DNA from: Candidatus Fermentibacterota bacterium
Lineage (GTDB): Bacteria > JAFGKV01
Direction of reading: 5' to 3'
Length of the DNA: 63,148 nt
Assembly (NCBI GenBank): GCA_016928395.1
Contig: JAFGKV010000143.1
Coordinates: 1-63,148 of the forward strand
Shown here: positions 41,902-52,560 of the stretch, in pieces
Numbering within the stretch: the first letter of the stretch is position 1
Layout of the letters: every line of letters starts with the position of its first letter
The notes under the pieces: generated by a model
Told to the model about the DNA's origin: nothing
The model's input: only the letters and a program-made list of their open reading frames with translations
The model's database searches: none
Made by a program: the position numbers and the translations under genes

Positions 41902-44292
41902 CTAGGGTGATCCCACGGTGAGCTCCCACACGATGTCGCCGGCCGTGTTGGACGGCGCCGAACGGTTGCCGGCCGCATCGGCCGCGATGATGCGATAGAA
42001 GTACTGCTCGCCGGGCGCGGCCCCCGCGGCAGGATCAATCCACGTGCACGGCGGGGGATTGCCCAAGAGAGTGTGCAACTCCCCACCGAGCGCAGGCACA
42101 TAGTGCCCCATACCGGCACGATAGATGTCGTACCTGGTCACCCCCACATTGTCGCCGGGGTTGCTCCAGGTCAGCCGGATGCCGTTCACGGGGCCGGGTC
42201 CCGCCATGAGGTCTCCGATGCACCCCGGGGACTCCGTATCCGGCGTGCCGCCACCCAGGTCGCCCGTGACCACCACGGCGAAAGGCTGGGGACCGTAAGG
42301 GATGTTATGGCCGCGCACGGTTATGGAGTAGCTTCCGGCTGCCGGCGTGTTGAACTGGGCGCATTCCACCACGTTTCTTCGGTCGGCACTGCCGCCGGTA
42401 CATGATTGACCGCCTGAGTACACATTGCCGAGATAGAACCCCGTGGGAGCAGTGACTTCCAGATCGAGGTCGTTTACCAGGGCAACGCCCGTTCCCTGGG
42501 CCGCGGGATAGTCGGTCCAGACCAACACAATCTCCAAGGGCTGCGACGTCCCCGCAGTGTAGGCGTATGTCCGCGTCTGGCCGGTGGTAATGCCCACCGA
42601 CTCATCCACCACGCTGAGTTGGCGAGGATCAGCCGGGAAGTAGAGGGCGTCGTCCAGCAGTATCCGTCCCCAGCCCTGGTTATTGTCAGGGAAGGTGCCG
42701 CCGATGGTCGTCCCGGAGTTGACCAGCGTCGCCTTGATTAGTGCCGCCGACGGAAGAAAGGCATTGGCTGGAACCGGGACTCCGGTGGGGTAGTAGCCTT
42801 CGGTGAAGTACTGGCGCACCAGAAGCCCGGCGGCCGCCGAGGCGGGCGTGGCCATGCTGGTTCCCCTGAAGGGGTTTCCCTGCACATTGCAGGTCTGGGA
42901 AGGAGGATTGCCGGTGGTGTTGTTGGCCGAGTTGATATAGTTGCCAGTCTCGCCCCCCGGCGCCACGATTGTCGGCTTGCGGCGAGTGTCATAGGCCGGC
43001 CCGCGGCTGGAGTAGGAGGCCATGAGGTGCTGGCTGGGGGCCTGTTGGGTCGCACCCACGGATACGCAGTTCTTGGCCGTGGCCGGGCTGCCGATGGTGC
43101 CCGAGTTGGGGCCGGCATTGCCCATGGCGAAGAAGATGAGGAAGTTCTTGTGATTCCACATGAAGTTGTCGACATCCTGCGCCATGGAGTCATAGGTGTT
43201 CGAGGAGGATCCCCAGCTGTTCGTGTGGAGGTAGGCGCCGTCATTGAGAGAGTTCAGATACGAGGGCTCTAGGTCGCTCGGAATGTTGACCGATCCTGTC
43301 GAGCACGCCCAGGAATCGTCCTGGCCCACGTCCTGGAATGTCAGACGCGCCTTGTAGGCGAGGCCATTGTACGCGGAGTTGGTTCCGAAGATGTCCTCCC
43401 CGAGGACCGTACCCGTGACATGGGTGCCGTGACCGTCGGCGCACCCGTCATACGCCGCACCCCCGGTGAGACGGTATGCCTGCACCTTGCGGTGGTTGGC
43501 GCCGAAGGAGTCGCCCTCGGGATCTCGGAAGAAACAGGAGTTGTAGTCGAGCCCCGAGTCCATGATGCCGATGATCTGCCCTTCGCCGTGAAGCCCCCGG
43601 TCCCACGCAGGGGTGCCATCCGTCTGGTTGCTCTGGAGCACCCACTTCGTACGGTTATTGAGCAGGAAGCACTCGGGTATCTCCTCGATCCATTCGACTC
43701 CGTTCATGCGGGCGAGGGGATGGACGAGTTCCGGTGGGGCGTGCACCACCAGCAGATCGCCCAGGGGTTTGGTGATGATCTCCCGCACTTCGCCACCCAT
43801 TGCTTCCACCTCGTCGGCGAGGACTGAACCCCGCTCCGTGGGGAACAGCCGGACCTTGAGCCACAGAAGTGGATCCTCGGCCCGGGCCGGGTGCATGAAT
43901 GTCTGGTTTCCCACGGTCGACGCGATCTTGAAGGCCGGATGATACGGCCCGACCCACGTGACCCCTCCATCGCCCCGCCAAGACAGGATGGCCGCTCCGT
44001 CACCGCGGACTATCCATGCATGGTAGGGCAGATACCGAACGGGTTCGACGCCCCCCTGGCGAAGCCCTTCTAGGGCCGTTTCGGTTGTCGGCCCGTCGAA
44101 CTTCACGATGCCATACGTGACGACTCCCGCCTCGAGGCGGCTTGACAGCTCGGGCGGGACCACCGGTCCCCCGGTTCGCGGATCGATGGCATACCTCTGG
44201 AGTATGATCATATCCTCGATCGGCTCGGCGACGCGTGCCTGAGCAATCATGAGAGGCAGCACCACAAGGAATCCAAGACACCGAATCATCAC
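41902..44292 (-). CDS. Secreted subtilisin-like serine protease (S8) with FN3 domain
   Basis: This 796-residue exported protease has a signal peptide (MIRCLGFLVVLPLMIAQARVA), a propeptide-like region (about 25-200) and a subtilase domain with all catalytic residues: Asp in IIGIMDSGLDYN, His in GHGTHVTG, the oxyanion Asn in FAMGNAGPNSG and Ser in FRGTSMATPASA. A proprotein-convertase-like beta sandwich follows (about 570-680: LVWTDYPAAQG…VNDLDLEV), then a fibronectin III domain (about 695-790). GGAGGG precedes the ATG and a near-consensus promoter lies 50-80 bases upstream. It heads the operon with DUF6599 and DUF362. Confidence 0.92.
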   Translation of the reverse strand: MMIRCLGFLVVLPLMIAQARVAEPIEDMIILQRYAIDPRTGGPVVPPELSSRLEAGVVTYGIVKFDGPTTETALEGLRQGGVEPVRYLPYHAWIVRGDGAAILSWRGDGGVTWVGPYHPAFKIASTVGNQTFMHPARAEDPLLWLKVRLFPTERGSVLADEVEAMGGEVREIITKPLGDLLVVHAPPELVHPLARMNGVEWIEEIPECFLLNNRTKWVLQSNQTDGTPAWDRGLHGEGQIIGIMDSGLDYNSCFFRDPEGDSFGANHRKVQAYRLTGGAAYDGCADGHGTHVTGTVLGEDIFGTNSAYNGLAYKARLTFQDVGQDDSWACSTGSVNIPSDLEPSYLNSLNDGAYLHTNSWGSSSNTYDSMAQDVDNFMWNHKNFLIFFAMGNAGPNSGTIGSPATAKNCVSVGATQQAPSQHLMASYSSRGPAYDTRRKPTIVAPGGETGNYINSANNTTGNPPSQTCNVQGNPFRGTSMATPASAAAGLLVRQYFTEGYYPTGVPVPANAFLPSAALIKATLVNSGTTIGGTFPDNNQGWGRILLDDALYFPADPRQLSVVDESVGITTGQTRTYAYTAGTSQPLEIVLVWTDYPAAQGTGVALVNDLDLEVTAPTGFYLGNVYSGGQSCTGGSADRRNVVECAQFNTPAAGSYSITVRGHNIPYGPQPFAVVVTGDLGGGTPDTESPGCIGDLMAGPGPVNGIRLTWSNPGDNVGVTRYDIYRAGMGHYVPALGGELHTLLGNPPPCTWIDPAAGAAPGEQYFYRIIAADAAGNRSAPSNTAGDIVWELTVGSP

Positions 44293-44688: not shown

Positions 44689-45801
44689 ATGATGTATTCG
44701 ATCGTCCCTCTACTCGTGGCCGCGTTCCTCTCCTCGGCGGAAGCCGAGGTGCGCATGACCGCGGTGGATACGCCCAACGACGGCGGCGGCTCCATAACCC
44801 TCCGCTGGATCCCGTTGGTCCAGACGGAATACGCCGAGTCGGTCTCTGTCTTGGGGCTCTATCGCCGCGACGGCCTCGGCGGCGAACGCATCGGGCTGGC
44901 GGAACTTGCCCTCGGGGACAGTGCATTCATCGATGAGGACGTGGTGAACCGCCAGCGGTACGTCTACGAGATCGAAGCAGAGTTTCCGTCGTCCACCGCC
45001 ATCCTGGGCACGGCAGAAGGAACTGCGGCGACCCAGTGGTTCCGCACCGACCGGTCCGCGGTGTTCGTGGCCGTGGTGGTCTTCACCGGGCTTCTCCTCT
45101 GGTTCACCTACCACGCTCGATCAGGCCGGCGAATGTTCATTCGGCGTATCGCCGGCCTGGAGGCCGTGGAAGAAGCGGTGGGTCGCGCCACCGAGATGGG
45201 CAAGCCCATCATGTACATCCCCGGCATCAGCTCCATGGATGATGTGGCCACCATCGCCTCCATCCAGATCCTGGCGCAGGTGGCCAAGAAGGCCGGCGAG
45301 TATGGCACCCGGCTCATGGTGCCCAACCGCGACCCCATCGTGATGGCGGTCGCCCAGGAAATCGTCAAAGAGTCGTATAACCAGATAGGCAGGCCCGATC
45401 TCTACAATCATGATGACATCTACTACGTAACCTACAGCCAGTTCGGCTATGCCGCCGCAGTCAGCGGCATCATGCTCCGAGAGCGCCCGGCCACAAACTT
45501 CCTTCTGGGCATGTTCTACGCGGAATCTCTCATACTGTCGGAGACCGGCAACACCACGGGCGCGATCCAGATCGCCGGCACCGACTCAGATGCCCAGTTG
45601 CCGTTTTTCATCACGTCCTGTGACTACACGCTTATCGGGGAAGAGCTCTACGCGGCCAGCGTCTACCTCTCCCGCGAGCCCATGCTCCTGGGCAGCCTCA
45701 AGGCGCAGGACTATGCCAAAGCCTTGCTCCTAGCCCTGACCGCCATCGGCGTCGTGCTCTCCATCGCCGGCATCCCCCAGTTTGCCCGAGCGTTCCACTG
45801 A
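44689..45801 (+). CDS. DUF6754 membrane protein
   Basis: This 370-residue protein has a signal peptide (MMYSIVPLLVAAFLSSAEA), an extracytoplasmic FN3-like domain (about 20-120), a transmembrane helix (VFVAVVVFTGLLLWFTYHA) and a cytosolic domain. The last has the conserved DUF6754 pattern: KPIMYIPGISSMDDVATIASIQILAQVAKK, LMVPNRDPIVMAVAQEIVK, YYVTYSQFGYAAAVSGIMLRERPATNFLLGMF and AIQIAGTDSDAQLPFFITSCDYTLIGEELYAAS. A last helix lies near the C-terminus. Function unknown. ATG 44689 was chosen because the signal peptide starts there. It heads a four-gene membrane operon and overlaps the next gene by one base. Confidence 0.8.
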   Translation: MMYSIVPLLVAAFLSSAEAEVRMTAVDTPNDGGGSITLRWIPLVQTEYAESVSVLGLYRRDGLGGERIGLAELALGDSAFIDEDVVNRQRYVYEIEAEFPSSTAILGTAEGTAATQWFRTDRSAVFVAVVVFTGLLLWFTYHARSGRRMFIRRIAGLEAVEEAVGRATEMGKPIMYIPGISSMDDVATIASIQILAQVAKKAGEYGTRLMVPNRDPIVMAVAQEIVKESYNQIGRPDLYNHDDIYYVTYSQFGYAAAVSGIMLRERPATNFLLGMFYAESLILSETGNTTGAIQIAGTDSDAQLPFFITSCDYTLIGEELYAASVYLSREPMLLGSLKAQDYAKALLLALTAIGVVLSIAGIPQFARAFH

Positions 45802-46433
45802 TGTTCAGACGAACCATTCCCACCATCCTTGCCTTCGTGGTGGGCGTGTTCATGATCGTGCAGTTCTTCGTGCCCCATCCCGTGCTGCAGACACTGTACA
45901 ACATGGTCTTGGATTGGAAACAGGTCGTGTTCGGCTGCGTGCTCATCGTGGGAACTCTGACCCTCGTGCGTCACCATGCGGTCAGGATACGATTCCGGAA
46001 GCAGGGCTATGGGTACAGCGTCATCGCCTTGGTCAGCCTGTTCGCCATGGTGCTGGCCGGCGCCGTATGGGGCATCGAGAAGGGGCCGTATCCGTGGCTC
46101 TTCGACTATGTGCAGATCCCGGGCCAGGCGACGATGTTCAGCTTGCTGGGGTTCTTTATTGCCACGGCGGCCTATCGCTCGTTCCGGGCCCGCAATGTCA
46201 CGGCCACGCTGCTCTTACTGTCGGGAGTGATCGTCATGCTGGGCAGGGTCCCGGCGGGCGAGCACATCGCCGTGGCGGGGGTGTCCTTGTCCGATCTGGC
46301 GACGTGGATCCTGGACTATCCTAACAATGCTGCGAAGCGTGGCATCCTCATAGGGGTTGGCTTGGGGATGACCTCCACCGCATTGAAGATCATCATTGGC
46401 ATCGAGCGGTCGTACCTGGGGAAAGGAGACTGA
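45801..46433 (+). CDS. Polytopic membrane protein of the DUF6754 operon
   Basis: This 210-residue protein has six or so hydrophobic helices (IPTILAFVVGVFMIVQFFV, VVFGCVLIVGTLTLV, VIALVSLFAMVLAGAVWGI, MFSLLGFFIATAAYRSF, TLLLLSGVIVMLG, GILIGVGLGMTSTALKIII). No family was recognised. Its ATG begins at the last base of the upstream stop, and the next gene starts three bases after its stop, so the three products are likely made in balanced amounts and may form one complex. Confidence 0.82.
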   Translation: MFRRTIPTILAFVVGVFMIVQFFVPHPVLQTLYNMVLDWKQVVFGCVLIVGTLTLVRHHAVRIRFRKQGYGYSVIALVSLFAMVLAGAVWGIEKGPYPWLFDYVQIPGQATMFSLLGFFIATAAYRSFRARNVTATLLLLSGVIVMLGRVPAGEHIAVAGVSLSDLATWILDYPNNAAKRGILIGVGLGMTSTALKIIIGIERSYLGKGD

Positions 46434-46436
46434 GGC

Positions 46437-47285
46437 ATGGCCGACTCCAGTCGAATGACCCGCACCATCATCTACTGGGGTGTCGCCCTGTCCATCGTTA
46501 TCCCGCTGCTGCGGCCTATCGGTTTCACCACCGAAGTGTCCTCCCAGGTGCGCGACGTGTACGATTTCATCGAGGCCATGCCAGAGAACAGCCCCGTGAT
46601 CATGAGCTTCGATTATGAGCCGGCCACCCTCGCCGAACTGGATCCCATGGCTGAGGCGATGCTCAAACACCTGTTCCGTAAGAATGCCAGGGTCATGGGC
46701 ATGACCCTGCTTCCGGGCGGCGTGGGCCTGGCGGAAAACCTGCTCCGCCAGGAGGCGGCGGCCGCGAACATGGAGTATGGGCACAACTGGCTCTTTCTCG
46801 GATATGTCCCCGATGGCACGGCGGCCATGCTGCGTATGGGTGAAAACGTAGCCATGGTGTTCCCGACCGATCAGTACGGCACTCCCCTGGACTCATTCCC
46901 CATGATGCGCGGCGTGAAGAACTACCGGCACATCGGGTTGGTTATCTGTTACTCTTCCACGGCGATGCCGCAGCTATGGGCCCAGTACGCCCATGACCGG
47001 TACGGTGCCGCCGTTGCCGTGGGGGCGACCGCGGTGGAAGCCGTGCGGCTGTACCCCTACCACGACTCCGGCCAGATGGTAGGGTTCTTGGGCGGCCTCA
47101 AGGGCGCGGCGGAGTATGAGACTCTCATCGAGTCCCCCGGTGACGGTATCCGGGGCATGGACGCCCAGACGATCTCACACGTGTTCATCGTGGTAATGAT
47201 CATTCTGGGCAATGTGGGCTACGCAGCGTCCACGTGGCGCAGCAAAGGCGCCCCAAGCGGGAGGACCCATGCACCCGTCGCCTGA
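46437..47285 (+). CDS. Membrane-anchored protein of the DUF6754 operon
   Basis: This 282-residue protein has an N-terminal helix (IIYWGVALSIVIPLLRPIGF), a large soluble region (about 40-245) and a C-terminal helix (HVFIVVMIILGNVGYAAS). The soluble part has alternating strands and helices (SPVIMSFDYEPATLAELDPMAEAMLKHLF, ARVMGMTLLPGGVGLAENLL, HIGLVICYSSTAMPQLWAQYAHDRYGAAVAVGATAVEA) like a Rossmann-type fold. No family was recognised. GAAAGGAG precedes the start. It overlaps the next gene by 17 bases. Confidence 0.8.
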   Translation: MADSSRMTRTIIYWGVALSIVIPLLRPIGFTTEVSSQVRDVYDFIEAMPENSPVIMSFDYEPATLAELDPMAEAMLKHLFRKNARVMGMTLLPGGVGLAENLLRQEAAAANMEYGHNWLFLGYVPDGTAAMLRMGENVAMVFPTDQYGTPLDSFPMMRGVKNYRHIGLVICYSSTAMPQLWAQYAHDRYGAAVAVGATAVEAVRLYPYHDSGQMVGFLGGLKGAAEYETLIESPGDGIRGMDAQTISHVFIVVMIILGNVGYAASTWRSKGAPSGRTHAPVA

Positions 47286-47895
47286 TCCCGGCATCTGGCT
47301 CGCCGCCATTCTGACCTTGGCGGGGTTCTCGTTTCTATGGAGAGACAATCCGTTCTTCAAGGTCATGGAGCACATGCTGGTCGGCGTGTCGGCGGGGTAC
47401 TACCTCGTTCAGTACGCCTATTCGGCCTTGTACAAGAAGCTGTATGTTCCGCTAGTGGTACAGGGGAACCTCCTGTTTGCCGGGTGCGCGATACTGGGGC
47501 TCATGGTGTTCGCCAGGTTGTTCCCCAAACGCTCGTGGCTCAGCCGCTATCCCGTTGCCTTCTATGTGGCGGCCGGTGCCGGCTACAGCATTCCCTCCAC
47601 CATTCAGGCGCGGGTGGTGAAACAGATGCAGGTCACCATGGTAAACTTCCTGGATCAGGGGTCGGTCATCGCTGTGATCTCCGGATTCCTGCTGTTCCTC
47701 GGCGTGGTGACCGTCCTGTTGTACTTCTTCTTCTCCGCCGAGCACAGGGGAGTGCTAGGCGCTGCATCCAAGATCGGAATTGTAACCTTGATGATCGGAT
47801 TCGGCGCGTCGTTCGGCTACACGGTCATGAGCCGCATCACGCTGCTGATCGGGAGGTTCCAGTTCCTGCTGGGAGACTGGTTGGGATTTCTCTAG
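47269..47895 (+). CDS. Polytopic membrane protein, fourth gene of the DUF6754 operon
   Basis: This 208-residue protein has about six helices (IWLAAILTLAGFSFLW, HMLVGVSAGYYLVQYAY, LLFAGCAILGLMVFARLF, YPVAFYVAAGAGYSIP, VIAVISGFLLFLGVVTVLLYFF, IGIVTLMIGFGASFGYTVM). A soluble loop carries TIQARVVKQMQVTMVNFL. No family was recognised. ATG 47269 with GGGAGGACCC before it was preferred to a start at 47212. Both ends lie close to neighbours: it overlaps the previous gene and the next begins 16 bases on. Confidence 0.8.
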   Translation: MHPSPDPGIWLAAILTLAGFSFLWRDNPFFKVMEHMLVGVSAGYYLVQYAYSALYKKLYVPLVVQGNLLFAGCAILGLMVFARLFPKRSWLSRYPVAFYVAAGAGYSIPSTIQARVVKQMQVTMVNFLDQGSVIAVISGFLLFLGVVTVLLYFFFSAEHRGVLGAASKIGIVTLMIGFGASFGYTVMSRITLLIGRFQFLLGDWLGFL

Positions 47896-47910: not shown

Positions 47911-48600
47911 ATGCCTACTCGACTTACGTGGCTTGGCCATTCGGCGTTTCTCGTGGAAATGGGCGCCCATCGGTTGCTCATCGACCCATTCCTGACGGGC
48001 AATCCGCAGGCAAACATGAGCCCCGATGATGTCCAAGTCGATTTTGTTCTGGTGACCCACGGCCACGGGGATCACCTGGGCGACACGGTGGCTATCGCCC
48101 AACGTACGGGGGCGACGGTGATCTCCAACTACGAGATCATTACCTATTTATCGTCCCATCATGGCATTACGAAGGTCAGCCCACAGCACCTCGGCGGCCT
48201 CGTCCACTATCCGTGGGGGTCGCTGAAGCTTACCCCGGCGATGCACGGCTCCAGCCTGCCGGATGGTTCCTACGGCGGCAACCCCGCCGGCCTGCTGCTT
48301 CGGCGAGACGGAGCGACGGTGTACCACGCCGGCGACACCGGGCTGTTCGGCGACATGGCGCTCATCGGCGAGGAGGGCATCGACGTGGCGTTGCTTCCCG
48401 TTGGCGACCGGTTCACCATGGGTCCATCCGATGCGCTTCGCGCGCTTCGCCTCCTTCGACCAAACGTGGTGATTCCCATGCACTACAATACATTCGACGG
48501 GATTGCCCAGGACATCGCGCCCTGGGCGGATGAAGTAACCCGCACCGGTCTTGCGATGCCGGTGCTGCTCTCCCCGGGCCAGAGCTACGCGGTCAACTGA
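47911..48600 (+). CDS. UPF0173 metallo-beta-lactamase-fold hydrolase
   Basis: This 229-residue cytosolic metallo-hydrolase is of the UPF0173/UlaG-like type. It has THGHGDHLGD (metal motif 2), the family's LTWLGHSAFLVE start with IDPFL, YGGNPAGLLLRRDGATVYHAGDTGLFGDM, LLPVGDRFTMGP and IPMHYNTF. The physiological substrate is unknown for the family. GGAGGGGG lies before its ATG. It directly follows the membrane operon and may be its last gene. Confidence 0.92.
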   Translation: MPTRLTWLGHSAFLVEMGAHRLLIDPFLTGNPQANMSPDDVQVDFVLVTHGHGDHLGDTVAIAQRTGATVISNYEIITYLSSHHGITKVSPQHLGGLVHYPWGSLKLTPAMHGSSLPDGSYGGNPAGLLLRRDGATVYHAGDTGLFGDMALIGEEGIDVALLPVGDRFTMGPSDALRALRLLRPNVVIPMHYNTFDGIAQDIAPWADEVTRTGLAMPVLLSPGQSYAVN

Positions 48601-48777: not shown

Positions 48778-51700
48778 ATGAAGCGCGCCCGCGTCGCCCC
48801 GACCGTCCCGGTTGGCCCCGGACGCCTGCCCCGCGTCGGGGAAGTTGTCGGCACCCGCTACCGGATCGCAGCCCATGTCGGCAAGGGCGGGTATGGTGAT
48901 GTGTTCAAGGCGCATGACCTCCGGCTGGATCTGCCCGTGGCGCTCAAGTTTCTGCGGGGCAGCATCGCCCAGGACCAAGCGGCGTGGGAGGCGCGCTTCG
49001 GCCGCGCGGTGGTGCATCCGGTCATTGCACGGATCCATGATTTGGCGTGGGAGCACGGCATGCCCTATCTGGTCATGGAGCTGGTGGAGGGGCCCACGCT
49101 CAGCGCCGATCTGGCAATCCACGGCCCGTGTTCGGTGTTCCAGGCGCTCTATCTTCTTGAAACGATCTGTCCCGCCCTGGAGGCAGCCAGCGACAAGGGT
49201 ATGCTCCACGGCGATCTCAAGCTGGCCAACATAATGGTACGGCCTGACGGCACTCTGGCATTGGTCGACTTCGGCACGGCCTTACTCCTGGCGCGCGAGG
49301 ACATCCCCGCGGCGGGAACGCCCGACTACATGGCGCCCGAGGTCCTGGCAGGCGGGCCACTCACGGCGAGTAGCGAGATCTACTCACTGGGGATTTGTCT
49401 CTACGAGTTGCTCACCGCCAGCCTGCCTCGAGATACCGCTCCCACCGGGAAGCGTTCCTCAAAACGGCCAAGCATTCGGTTGAGCAATGTCCGACCGGAT
49501 GCCGATCCCCGGGTCTGCGACCTCGTTGCGACCATGATCCAACCCGATGTAAGCCTGCGTCCTAAGACCCTTCGCGAGGTACACGACATGGCGCAGACGG
49601 CGATGCGTCAAATCAGGATCGAGGGTGCCCGTTCCTTGCTCGCCGATCTCTGGAGCAAACGCGTAGCCGTAATCGCCCACGATGCGGGCCGCAATCCCGA
49701 CCTCTATCGCGTTCTTCTGGCACAGCGCCCCCACGTGCTTATCCCGGCTGACGACCAGGCATCCTGGGATTTCGTCAGCCGCGCGCACCCCTCAGGCCCC
49801 CATGCTCCGGAGCACACGACTGCCTATGCAACGGTGGCGGAGCTGGAGAGGGCCTTTCAGCAAAGCGGGGCACACAAAATCGTCGTGGTGGGAGTATCGC
49901 CATCCCCAGGCCCGGCCACTACTGCGCTGCTACTCATCGTGCCCGAACGGGATGCGGCGTGGACCACCCTGAGGAATCCCTCACCCACGGCGTGTGCCGT
50001 CCCCCTGACTCTGCAAGATCTCGGGAGTGCGTCGGAGGCCATGGAATCCATGCCGGAGCTGGCCCCGGAACCCGCCCCTGGAGGAGGGCCCTACACGCGC
50101 CGGAGCCGCCGGGCCTATCGATCGCTCTCCAAGGTAACAGGCGCCCTGATAAGGGTAGTGCTCGAGCACCCGGTCACCCTTGTGGACGGCCTGGATGTTT
50201 CCGGCCGCACCTCCCTGGCATTGTGCGCTCTTCTGCCCGTTTTGGCGAACTTGGGCAAGAGAACGGTCTACGTCCCTCGCCTCCTGCCATCATCGAGGAT
50301 CATTGATGCGCTCAGTACAGACTCCTCAGACGACGGCGCCATTGTCGTGGTGGACGACCATCGCCAATGGCCCTTTCCCCCCACGTGGCCGTGGGACCAC
50401 GAGTCGTGGGCAGGGGTGGCACCGGCGCTCTCGGCCTCAGGTGGCCGGCGACTGGTGCTGATTGCCCACACGGCTCATGCCATGGAAGCCGAGACGGCCG
50501 CTCGCCATGCCGGAATAGAGGCCGCACGGCTCACGCTCCCCCAGAACGACCACGATCGAATGCTGGACCTCTTCCAGCGCGCCGGTGCGAGTGACGAGAC
50601 AGCGAGCCGCCTCGCGACGCGTCTGGGCGAAGATGGGTGGCTCCCTTTCGAACTCCAACTGGCGCTACGGTGGGCTCGAACCGGCGAAGGGCTGGAGGGT
50701 TGGAGCCTGGAGGCCGCACGGAAGATGCATGTACACGAGGCCCTGGGGGCCGTCTCGCTGGGATGGCAGGAACCGGCGCGACGCGTCATCGCAGCGCTGG
50801 CAACAGGCCGGGGTCGGACATCGCTGGACGAGGCTGCCACCATTGCCGGCCTTTCGATGGAGGAAATGAGAGGGCTTGGCAGGAAGCTGGTGGCAGTGAA
50901 GCTCCTGAGGGGTGTCTGGCACGGCAAAGACCCGTGGCTTGAGATCCCGCGCGGGTTTGCCACGCCGTTGCTGGAGATGTTCGGGCCCGAATTCATAGAG
51001 GCCCGGGCACTTCGGCAGTCGCTGGAGCTTGAGATCTCTCTGGCCAAGAGTTTCGAAACTCGGATCGAAGGCCCTCGTTTGGCCCTGCTACGGCAGTTGT
51101 CCGATTCGTGCATGCTGGATGAAAGAGAGCGTGCGTTCCTGGAAACGGCGACCGAGCACCTCCGCGAAGAGGAGCGTACGGTGAGAATGGCGGTCGAGGC
51201 GTATGCCCTCTGCTGTCAGCGCCTGGCCGACGCCCGAGCCGCACTGGGGGATCTGCCGGCCACGGTATCGTTATCCACCGAGAACGGCTATGCCCGAGCC
51301 CGCGGTCTTGCTGCGGGCCTGGCCGCCGAGGAGGCTCGCCAGCAAGAGTCCTTCGACGAGGCGACCCTGGGATGCCATCGGCTTCTGGTCAAGGACCCCT
51401 CAAATGCAGAGGCACGGGGATCTTTGACCGATCTGCATTGGCGCGCCATGGCTCAGGCGGAGGAACAGGCACGGTGGAACGCCGCCAGGCATCACCGTGA
51501 CCTCGCCCTCTTGTACGGAGGGAAGCACTTTCGACAGCGGCTGGAGAAAGGCGCCTCCGTACTCATCGATAGCAGCCCCAGGGCCTCGGTGTCGCTCTAC
51601 CGCCTGATCGATCGCGATGGCATACTGGTTGATGAGGGAGAGGGGGTCACCGCCGCCACGCCGTGCATGTTGGAGGGTTTGGAGAGCGGCCCGTGGCGCG

Positions 51701-52560
51701 CCGTGGTGGAAGGACCCGGGCACGTGGCCGCTGCCGTGGCGTTCAATCTCCGGTGCGGTCATGAGGAGCGTATCGTTGCTCACCTGTACCGGCATGCATG
51801 GCTGGGTGACGACATGGTGCATGTTCCAGCCGGCGTCTTCAGGTTCGGGGGGGATCCAAAGGCTCCCGGTGGGGGCTTTGAACGCGACGTCATGGTGGGA
51901 GACTTCTTTCTGGCGAGGTTCCCCATCACGTTCCGTCAGTATTGCCAGTTCCTTGATGCCCAGGCTCTACCGTTGGATGACTGTCTGATCCCCCGGGGGG
52001 AGCAAGGGCAGGAGCTGGTCATGCGTACCTCGGATGGGCGACATCTCCCCGTGCCGGCGCGCCTGCGTGTGGATGGGACCATTCGCTACCGGGGATCGTT
52101 CGAGCTGGAGATACCCGTGGTGGGCGTAAGTTGGGAGGCGGCGTGCCGGTATTGCCGCTGGCTGAGCGCCGAGGAACATCGTTCCTACAGGCTCCCGTCG
52201 GAGGTGGAATGGGAGAAGGCCGCCAGATCAGGTCAAGGCAGGGCCTTTCCGTGGGGCGATGGGTTCAGCCCGGCCCGATGCAAGATGAGAGATTCCCGGC
52301 CCGGCCCCCCTGGCCTCGAACCTGTGGGCGTATTCACGGCCGACCTGTCTGTCTGCGGTATCCGCGATCTCGCCGGAGGCGTTGCCGAGTGGTGTAGCGA
52401 TCTGGAGGCGGGACTCCTGGGCCTCCGGGTGATACGGGGTGGATCGTGGATCGCAGGTGCCGATGGCTGCCGTGCCGCCGCCCGAGGCGCACTTCCCGAG
52501 GAATGGCAAGGCCAGTGGGTGGGATTCCGCGTCTGTTTCGGCGCCGACGACGAGCCATGA
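48778..52560 (+). CDS. Serine/threonine kinase fused to a formylglycine-generating-enzyme-like domain
   Basis: This 1260-residue protein starts with a eukaryotic-type kinase domain (about 27-275): glycine loop GKGGYGDV, catalytic Lys in VALKFL (K57), HGDLKLAN with D146 (Arg of the HRD motif is Gly), DFG at 164-166 and MAPE. The central 600 residues contain no family I recognise; part (about 460-720) has the pattern of an AAA/STAND-like regulator. The C-terminal 275 residues are an FGE-sulfatase fold (MVHVPAGVFRFGG, GVSWEAACRYCRWLSAEE, RLPSEVEWEKAARSG, AEWCSDLEAG, VIRGGSW, VGFRV). This combination signals or binds ligands in several bacteria and need not modify sulfatases. Confidence 0.85.
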   Translation: MKRARVAPTVPVGPGRLPRVGEVVGTRYRIAAHVGKGGYGDVFKAHDLRLDLPVALKFLRGSIAQDQAAWEARFGRAVVHPVIARIHDLAWEHGMPYLVMELVEGPTLSADLAIHGPCSVFQALYLLETICPALEAASDKGMLHGDLKLANIMVRPDGTLALVDFGTALLLAREDIPAAGTPDYMAPEVLAGGPLTASSEIYSLGICLYELLTASLPRDTAPTGKRSSKRPSIRLSNVRPDADPRVCDLVATMIQPDVSLRPKTLREVHDMAQTAMRQIRIEGARSLLADLWSKRVAVIAHDAGRNPDLYRVLLAQRPHVLIPADDQASWDFVSRAHPSGPHAPEHTTAYATVAELERAFQQSGAHKIVVVGVSPSPGPATTALLLIVPERDAAWTTLRNPSPTACAVPLTLQDLGSASEAMESMPELAPEPAPGGGPYTRRSRRAYRSLSKVTGALIRVVLEHPVTLVDGLDVSGRTSLALCALLPVLANLGKRTVYVPRLLPSSRIIDALSTDSSDDGAIVVVDDHRQWPFPPTWPWDHESWAGVAPALSASGGRRLVLIAHTAHAMEAETAARHAGIEAARLTLPQNDHDRMLDLFQRAGASDETASRLATRLGEDGWLPFELQLALRWARTGEGLEGWSLEAARKMHVHEALGAVSLGWQEPARRVIAALATGRGRTSLDEAATIAGLSMEEMRGLGRKLVAVKLLRGVWHGKDPWLEIPRGFATPLLEMFGPEFIEARALRQSLELEISLAKSFETRIEGPRLALLRQLSDSCMLDERERAFLETATEHLREEERTVRMAVEAYALCCQRLADARAALGDLPATVSLSTENGYARARGLAAGLAAEEARQQESFDEATLGCHRLLVKDPSNAEARGSLTDLHWRAMAQAEEQARWNAARHHRDLALLYGGKHFRQRLEKGASVLIDSSPRASVSLYRLIDRDGILVDEGEGVTAATPCMLEGLESGPWRAVVEGPGHVAAAVAFNLRCGHEERIVAHLYRHAWLGDDMVHVPAGVFRFGGDPKAPGGGFERDVMVGDFFLARFPITFRQYCQFLDAQALPLDDCLIPRGEQGQELVMRTSDGRHLPVPARLRVDGTIRYRGSFELEIPVVGVSWEAACRYCRWLSAEEHRSYRLPSEVEWEKAARSGQGRAFPWGDGFSPARCKMRDSRPGPPGLEPVGVFTADLSVCGIRDLAGGVAEWCSDLEAGLLGLRVIRGGSWIAGADGCRAAARGALPEEWQGQWVGFRVCFGADDEP

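Follow-up and report, generated by a model that had tools for sequence, protein, structure and literature searches.

ECF transporters supply a parallel in logic to the system described here: one single-copy energising module per cell, built on ABC ATPases, serves several exchangeable membrane modules. Proteins of the MutL/GlmL family (PF13941), canonically of about 450-490 aa, are accessories of B12-dependent glutamate mutase and ornithine aminomutase. MutL/GlmL has been called a chaperone for the reactivation of glutamate mutase (PMC4682846), which is the only function that we found for this family; no paper pairing PF13941 with MutL was found in our literature search, in which subscription journals were thinly covered. 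The RnfC and NqrA subunits of the Rnf/Nqr complexes carry an N-terminal barrel-sandwich hybrid domain, a common domain type. DUF6754 (PF20539) is a domain of unknown function, and the same thinly covered search found no paper naming it. The FESNov catalogue (PMC10849945) falls in the same general category, that of conserved unknown families of uncultured phyla; in its main text there is no mention of the phyla that we searched for.

The window analysed here is the whole 63,148-nucleotide stretch of contig JAFGKV010000143.1 from a Candidatus Fermentibacterota bacterium. A sequence-only reading of it had singled out four tightly coupled genes, starting with one for a DUF6754 protein, and the frame of each gene was verified by translation:

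44689-45801, forward strand: gene A, DUF6754 protein (Pfam PF20539), 370 aa
45801-46433, forward strand: gene B, six-helix membrane protein, 210 aa
46437-47285, forward strand: gene C, Rossmann-like domain between two transmembrane (TM) helices, 282 aa
47269-47895, forward strand: gene D, polytopic protein of about six helices, 208 aa

The coupling across 44689-47895 is as close as that reading had it: A and B have one base in common (TGATG), three bases separate B from C, and D starts inside C with an overlap of 17 bases. Compared with the nearest relative (locus L019) all four frames are under purifying selection (dN 0.08-0.15, dS 0.8-1.3). It was also correct that DUF6754 alone gives a family: the B, C and D proteins of the window match no Pfam or NCBIfam model, no consistent Pfam match appears over 40-85 relatives of each, and NCBIfam has no family for any of the four.

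Protein A is a member of PF20539 (E 5e-120; 399.7 bits against a cut-off of 27; profile positions 2-254 of 257). It consists of a signal peptide, an FN3 domain (about 19-117), a first TM helix (about 120-144), the Rossmann-like DUF6754 domain (about 155-330) and a second TM helix (about 331-359). In a structure search with its AlphaFold2 model (pLDDT 93.9, built from 80 relatives) residues 19-117 form an FN3 beta-sandwich with Z scores of 10-11 to many FN3 structures, and by profile the ectodomain matches titin FN3. The DUF6754 domain is predicted to face the cytosol from the charge bias of 125 sequences, and the order of secondary structure elements in the model reads as Rossmann-like; the earlier picture of an FN3-like outer part and a conserved cytosolic domain thus stands. 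Mean information per position is 3.18 bits in the cytosolic domain versus 1.61 in the FN3 part. The length of A varies widely, from 259-285 aa in some genomes, which leaves no room for FN3, to 914-1019 aa in others, and repeated FN3-like stretches were seen by eye in the A of L089. A conserved ligand pocket at the C-edges of the strands of A was considered and found unsupported (3.14 versus 3.18 bits).

The remaining three proteins also have the anatomy first read from the letters, namely two polytopic proteins and one two-helix protein with a soluble domain. B has six hydrophobic segments, is predicted by charge bias (125-145 sequences) to have both termini inside, and carries the conserved motif TMFSLLAFFxASAAYRAFRAR. 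D has about six hydrophobic segments and the conserved motifs SFLYKDNPFYKFAEHLxVGVSAGY and YFFFSxEHxG...FGASFGYTVMxRISLLIGR. In C a first TM helix (about 9-25) and a second (about 236-270) enclose a Rossmann-like domain (about 36-230), which is probably extracytoplasmic to judge from charge bias over 125-145 sequences. The strand C-edges of C are slightly more conserved than the rest (2.66 versus 2.31 bits). B and D gave no sign of homology in a profile comparison. A and C agree in how their strands and helices are ordered and in being closed by a TM helix, yet homology between them was not significant in profile comparisons run with and without secondary structure (P 0.016-0.027).

These folds bear on the idea that the four proteins are an enzyme in the membrane that acts on a lipid or envelope precursor, in which the Rossmann-like domains of A and C would be catalytic or nucleotide-binding. 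Both soluble domains are confidently modelled (pLDDT 94.6 for C, built from 85 relatives), and the best structure matches of C are the CODH epsilon subunit at Z 9.7 and, at Z 8-8.8, short-chain dehydrogenases. Such matches, however, are generic for the fold, and the strand C-edges of A, the site of pockets in Rossmann folds, show no concentration of conservation. We consider an enzyme of this kind the less probable by some distance, perhaps the case in slightly fewer than one world in five.

The sequence-only reading had proposed a search for the four genes together in other phyla. A scan of GTDB genomes yielded 70 loci; carriers include Zixibacteria, WOR-3/Stahlbacteria, Eisenbacteria, Fermentibacteria, Calditrichota, Sumerlaeota, CSSED10-310, TA06 and others. 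The same order is found in many candidate phyla. When a profile of each of the four genes was used, 89 loci gave 137 complete A-B-C-D cassettes in the same order and on the same strand, with median intergenic distances of 9, -1 and -1 bases. Because order and coupling recur in this way, the locus in the window is not a chance arrangement. Divergence is congruent among all four proteins (Mantel r 0.85-0.92 for every pair; maximum of 200 control permutations 0.11). In the bacterium of the window (G000) itself the complete cassettes number five, alongside an A at a contig edge and a B-C-D that lacks A; a 402-aa frame ahead of this orphan B-C-D (contig C262) was examined as a candidate and is not an A.

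In many loci of the Zixibacteria type cassettes follow one another head to tail, as pairs or triplets. A tree of 15 such triplet arrays groups the first copies together and comes close to doing the same for the second copies and for the third, with 3 changes of copy position versus 21.8 after shuffling (it is a fast tree, on which long branches are flagged). By this tree the triplet appears to be old, retained and position-specific. A mobile element was considered and rejected, with no relative found among the plasmids or viral contigs searched.

That A, B, C and D form one membrane complex is very probable, although the physical assembly is something we infer. The other way to read the gene order is that of a merely conserved operon, co-transcribed for one pathway and not for one assembly. 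Contact is indeed not provable from gene order alone, and A can be encoded away from B-C-D: three related genomes have an A without adjoining B-C-D (L013:2383-3420, L103:7146-8321, L110:7211-8380). Nevertheless, genes that overlap and keep their order across phyla, proteins that diverge congruently and copy numbers that match are typical of obligate complexes, and we regard the simple operon as very unlikely. G000 and G002 also have a C without A (in G000 as a B-C-D), as if one cassette had been split. In G138 a distance of 3.2 Mb separates A from C.

The four-gene set proved to be a recurring unit, as proposed, but an incomplete one: a MutL-like ATPase (M) and a barrel-sandwich protein (E), both encoded outside the window, belong to it as well. 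M is a MutL/GlmL-family protein of about 600-650 aa, and E is a protein of about 376 aa that resembles barrel-sandwich domains of the RnfC/biotin type and has a KOW-like end. The two lie directly upstream of A in WOR-3, CSSED10-310, Sumerlaeota and further lineages and divergent from A in Zixibacteria, and E adjoins M or sits one gene away. E is found downstream of M within 3 kb at 54 of 74 M places, and in 30 of 73 cases E is in turn followed by A within 5 kb. The genome of the window encodes M and E side by side on contig C93, unlinked to the cassette of the window and about 25 kb from a different one.

M matches the whole PF13941 profile above its cut-off, with 400-440 bits in general, 430-439 for L089/L090 and 428.8 in the genome of the window. 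Its best NCBIfam model is GlmL (NF040745), against which the M of L090 scores 245 bits, below the cut-off of 475; by these profiles M is of the same superfamily as GlmL and of a different subfamily, not GlmL itself. The phosphate and adenosine motifs of ASKHA ATPases are intact in 20-21 of 21 M proteins. M differs from the described MutL/GlmL proteins in its greater length, in occurring together with DUF6754 and not with mutase genes, and in being paired with or fused to E. At the M loci whose surroundings were scanned, a part of the total, M lies next to E and A, and no B12-dependent mutase was seen among its neighbours. E has no Pfam family. Its N-terminal part gives a weak RnfC/NqrA match (PF13375, PF05896) in 8 of 17 members at E<=0.05 (best 2.2e-5), and the E of L093 reaches 24.8 bits with the Pfam cut-off at 25.6. 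Neither B nor D matches a subunit of Rnf or Nqr. The likeness to ECF transporters is one of logic only: M belongs to the ASKHA ATPases, and no relation to them was found in sequence.

Paralogues that join M and an E-like domain in one frame, of 956-1050 aa in the genome survey, occur at nine places in seven genomes (G000 and G083 with two each, G001 of the same genus as G000, G002, G117, G242 and G254). The two in the genome of the window are:

G000:C331 (L151:492-3527), reverse strand: fused MutL-like and E-like paralogue, 1011 aa
G000:C20 (L152:7826-10663), reverse strand: fused MutL-like and E-like paralogue, 945 aa

These two have no A-D nearby and no common neighbours, and may point to a second use of the M-E pair. 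Neighbours of the fusions include GGGP synthase, enolase, EPSP synthase, radical SAM, aromatic lyase and peptidase M3; they share no theme, and an identification of the fusions as KamB of a lysine aminomutase operon was rejected on that account.

Co-occurrence was counted in 290 genomes, of which 78 have A (71 of 263 genera). Strong C matches are present in 75 genomes, all of them A-positive, and in no A-negative genome (Fisher p ~1e-66); E is present in 73 of the 78 genomes with A and in none of the 212 without (p ~1e-63); and for long M the counts are 71 of 78 and 2 of 212 (p ~1e-56), values to be read with the non-random sample in mind and as ignoring shared ancestry. A and C thus go together near-perfectly, as the sequence-only reading had expected of its four genes. 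At a permissive threshold C is found in 78 genomes, 76 of them common with A (C without A in G095 and G233), and E in 74; four A-positive genomes have no E match at all, and G009 has no M. DUF6754 is absent from 14 well-known control genomes. The number of A copies per genome ranges from one to seven, each a count of at least that many, and correlates with the number of C copies (r = 0.92 among the matches listed), while full-length E is single-copy in all 73 genomes carrying it.

C-only genome G095 contains a highly divergent relative of the cassette (L162:7148-12375, on G095:C20). The operon encodes D, C, a B of 503 aa into which a large soluble domain is inserted and, at the place of A, a TM-soluble-TM protein of 243 aa; it also holds a 485-aa protein with an M-like stretch that is not significant (2.2 bits).

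From its distribution and its fusions the M-E pair is, with good confidence, a functional partner of A-D. What it does there could be maturation or reactivation: A-D would be a membrane enzyme complex that loses activity in turnover or has to be assembled, and M-E its ATP-dependent reactivase or chaperone, by analogy with the role proposed for GlmL/MutL with B12-dependent mutases. The family membership of M and the reactivation role described for MutL/GlmL fit this, and one M-E per genome for one to seven cassettes would suit a shared chaperone. Against it, A-D have no match to a B12, radical-SAM or other cofactor family, and the M-E fusions lack a conserved enzyme neighbour. We give maturation about one chance in five.

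The genes around the cassette differ between lineages. In the window D is followed after 15 bases by a gene that is lineage-specific and not part of the core:

47911-48600, forward strand: PRK00685-type metal-dependent hydrolase

Elsewhere it was seen only beside the orthologous cassettes L019 and L020. Further on (48778-52560, forward strand) lies a gene for a protein of 1260 aa that combines a Ser/Thr kinase domain at the N-terminus with an FGE-sulfatase (formylglycine-enzyme-like) domain at the C-terminus; its orthologues follow the cassette in L019 and L020. On the other side, divergent from the cassette (41902-44292, reverse strand), a 796-aa secreted protease of the subtilase family is encoded, the C-terminal region of which reads like an FN3 repeat. 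In WOR-3/Stahlbacteria (L022, L025, L028, L031, L036) the genes after D keep one order, which runs from a DUF4388 protein through four small unknowns, ExbB, two ExbD and TonB to a TonB-dependent receptor-like protein.

These WOR-3 neighbours have some weight for a sensor or signalling device, in which FN3 and the outer domain of C would sense the envelope or a ligand and alter M-E inside, with no transport. The variable ectodomain set against a near-invariant cytosolic domain and the many specialised copies would agree with it. The DUF4388 and ExbB/ExbD/TonB neighbours are restricted to one lineage, however; no kinase, GGDEF, receiver or regulator was found to accompany the set from phylum to phylum, and two polytopic subunits exceed what a sensor needs. 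A sensor seems to us about as improbable as maturation.

The explanation that we prefer, and hold to be likely, is that A-B-C-D are an inner-membrane complex served by one shared M-E ATPase module. B and D would make up the polytopic core, flanked by A and C, with the Rossmann-like domain of A in the cytosol and that of C outside. The FN3 ectodomain of A, which ranges from absent to several repeats, may meet a partner in the envelope or outside the cell, and multiple cassettes per genome would be non-interchangeable versions with different outer partners. The single-copy, cytosolic M-E module would work on all cassettes of a cell. One soluble ATPase module for several cassettes, together with the near-invariant DUF6754 domain, suggests that E most likely docks on this domain and that the ATP cycle of M acts there; both this contact and the side on which the C domain lies are what we infer. 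ATP binding or hydrolysis by M could then remodel, recharge or drive the complex. 'Drives' is a guess, and M could be a maturation chaperone instead. Counted against the shared-module explanation are the M-E of the window's genome, unlinked to the window's cassette; the splits between A and B-C-D, including the distance in G138; the one orphan B-C-D; the four A-positive genomes with no E match; and G009 with no M. Transport or remodelling across the inner membrane as the output of the complex is speculative, and it is likewise a tentative suggestion that M and the adaptor E drive interchangeable A-B-C-D modules, each having an outer FN3 part of its own, as a new class of ATP-powered membrane machine that would move or remodel something in the envelope of many uncultured phyla.

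The sequence-only reading had put this locus forward as its best candidate for an undescribed system. No paper describing the system was found in our literature search, E is, like B, C and D, without a Pfam family, and M is of a different subfamily from GlmL. An isolated DUF becomes a set of six proteins with stated, putative contacts. With the set in about a quarter of the sampled genomes, M and E in single copy and up to about seven cassettes, it points to a sizeable piece of unknown cell biology in lineages such as Zixibacteria, WOR-3, Eisenbacteria and Calditrichota; if it is true that M powers the complex, this would be a new use of ASKHA ATPases.
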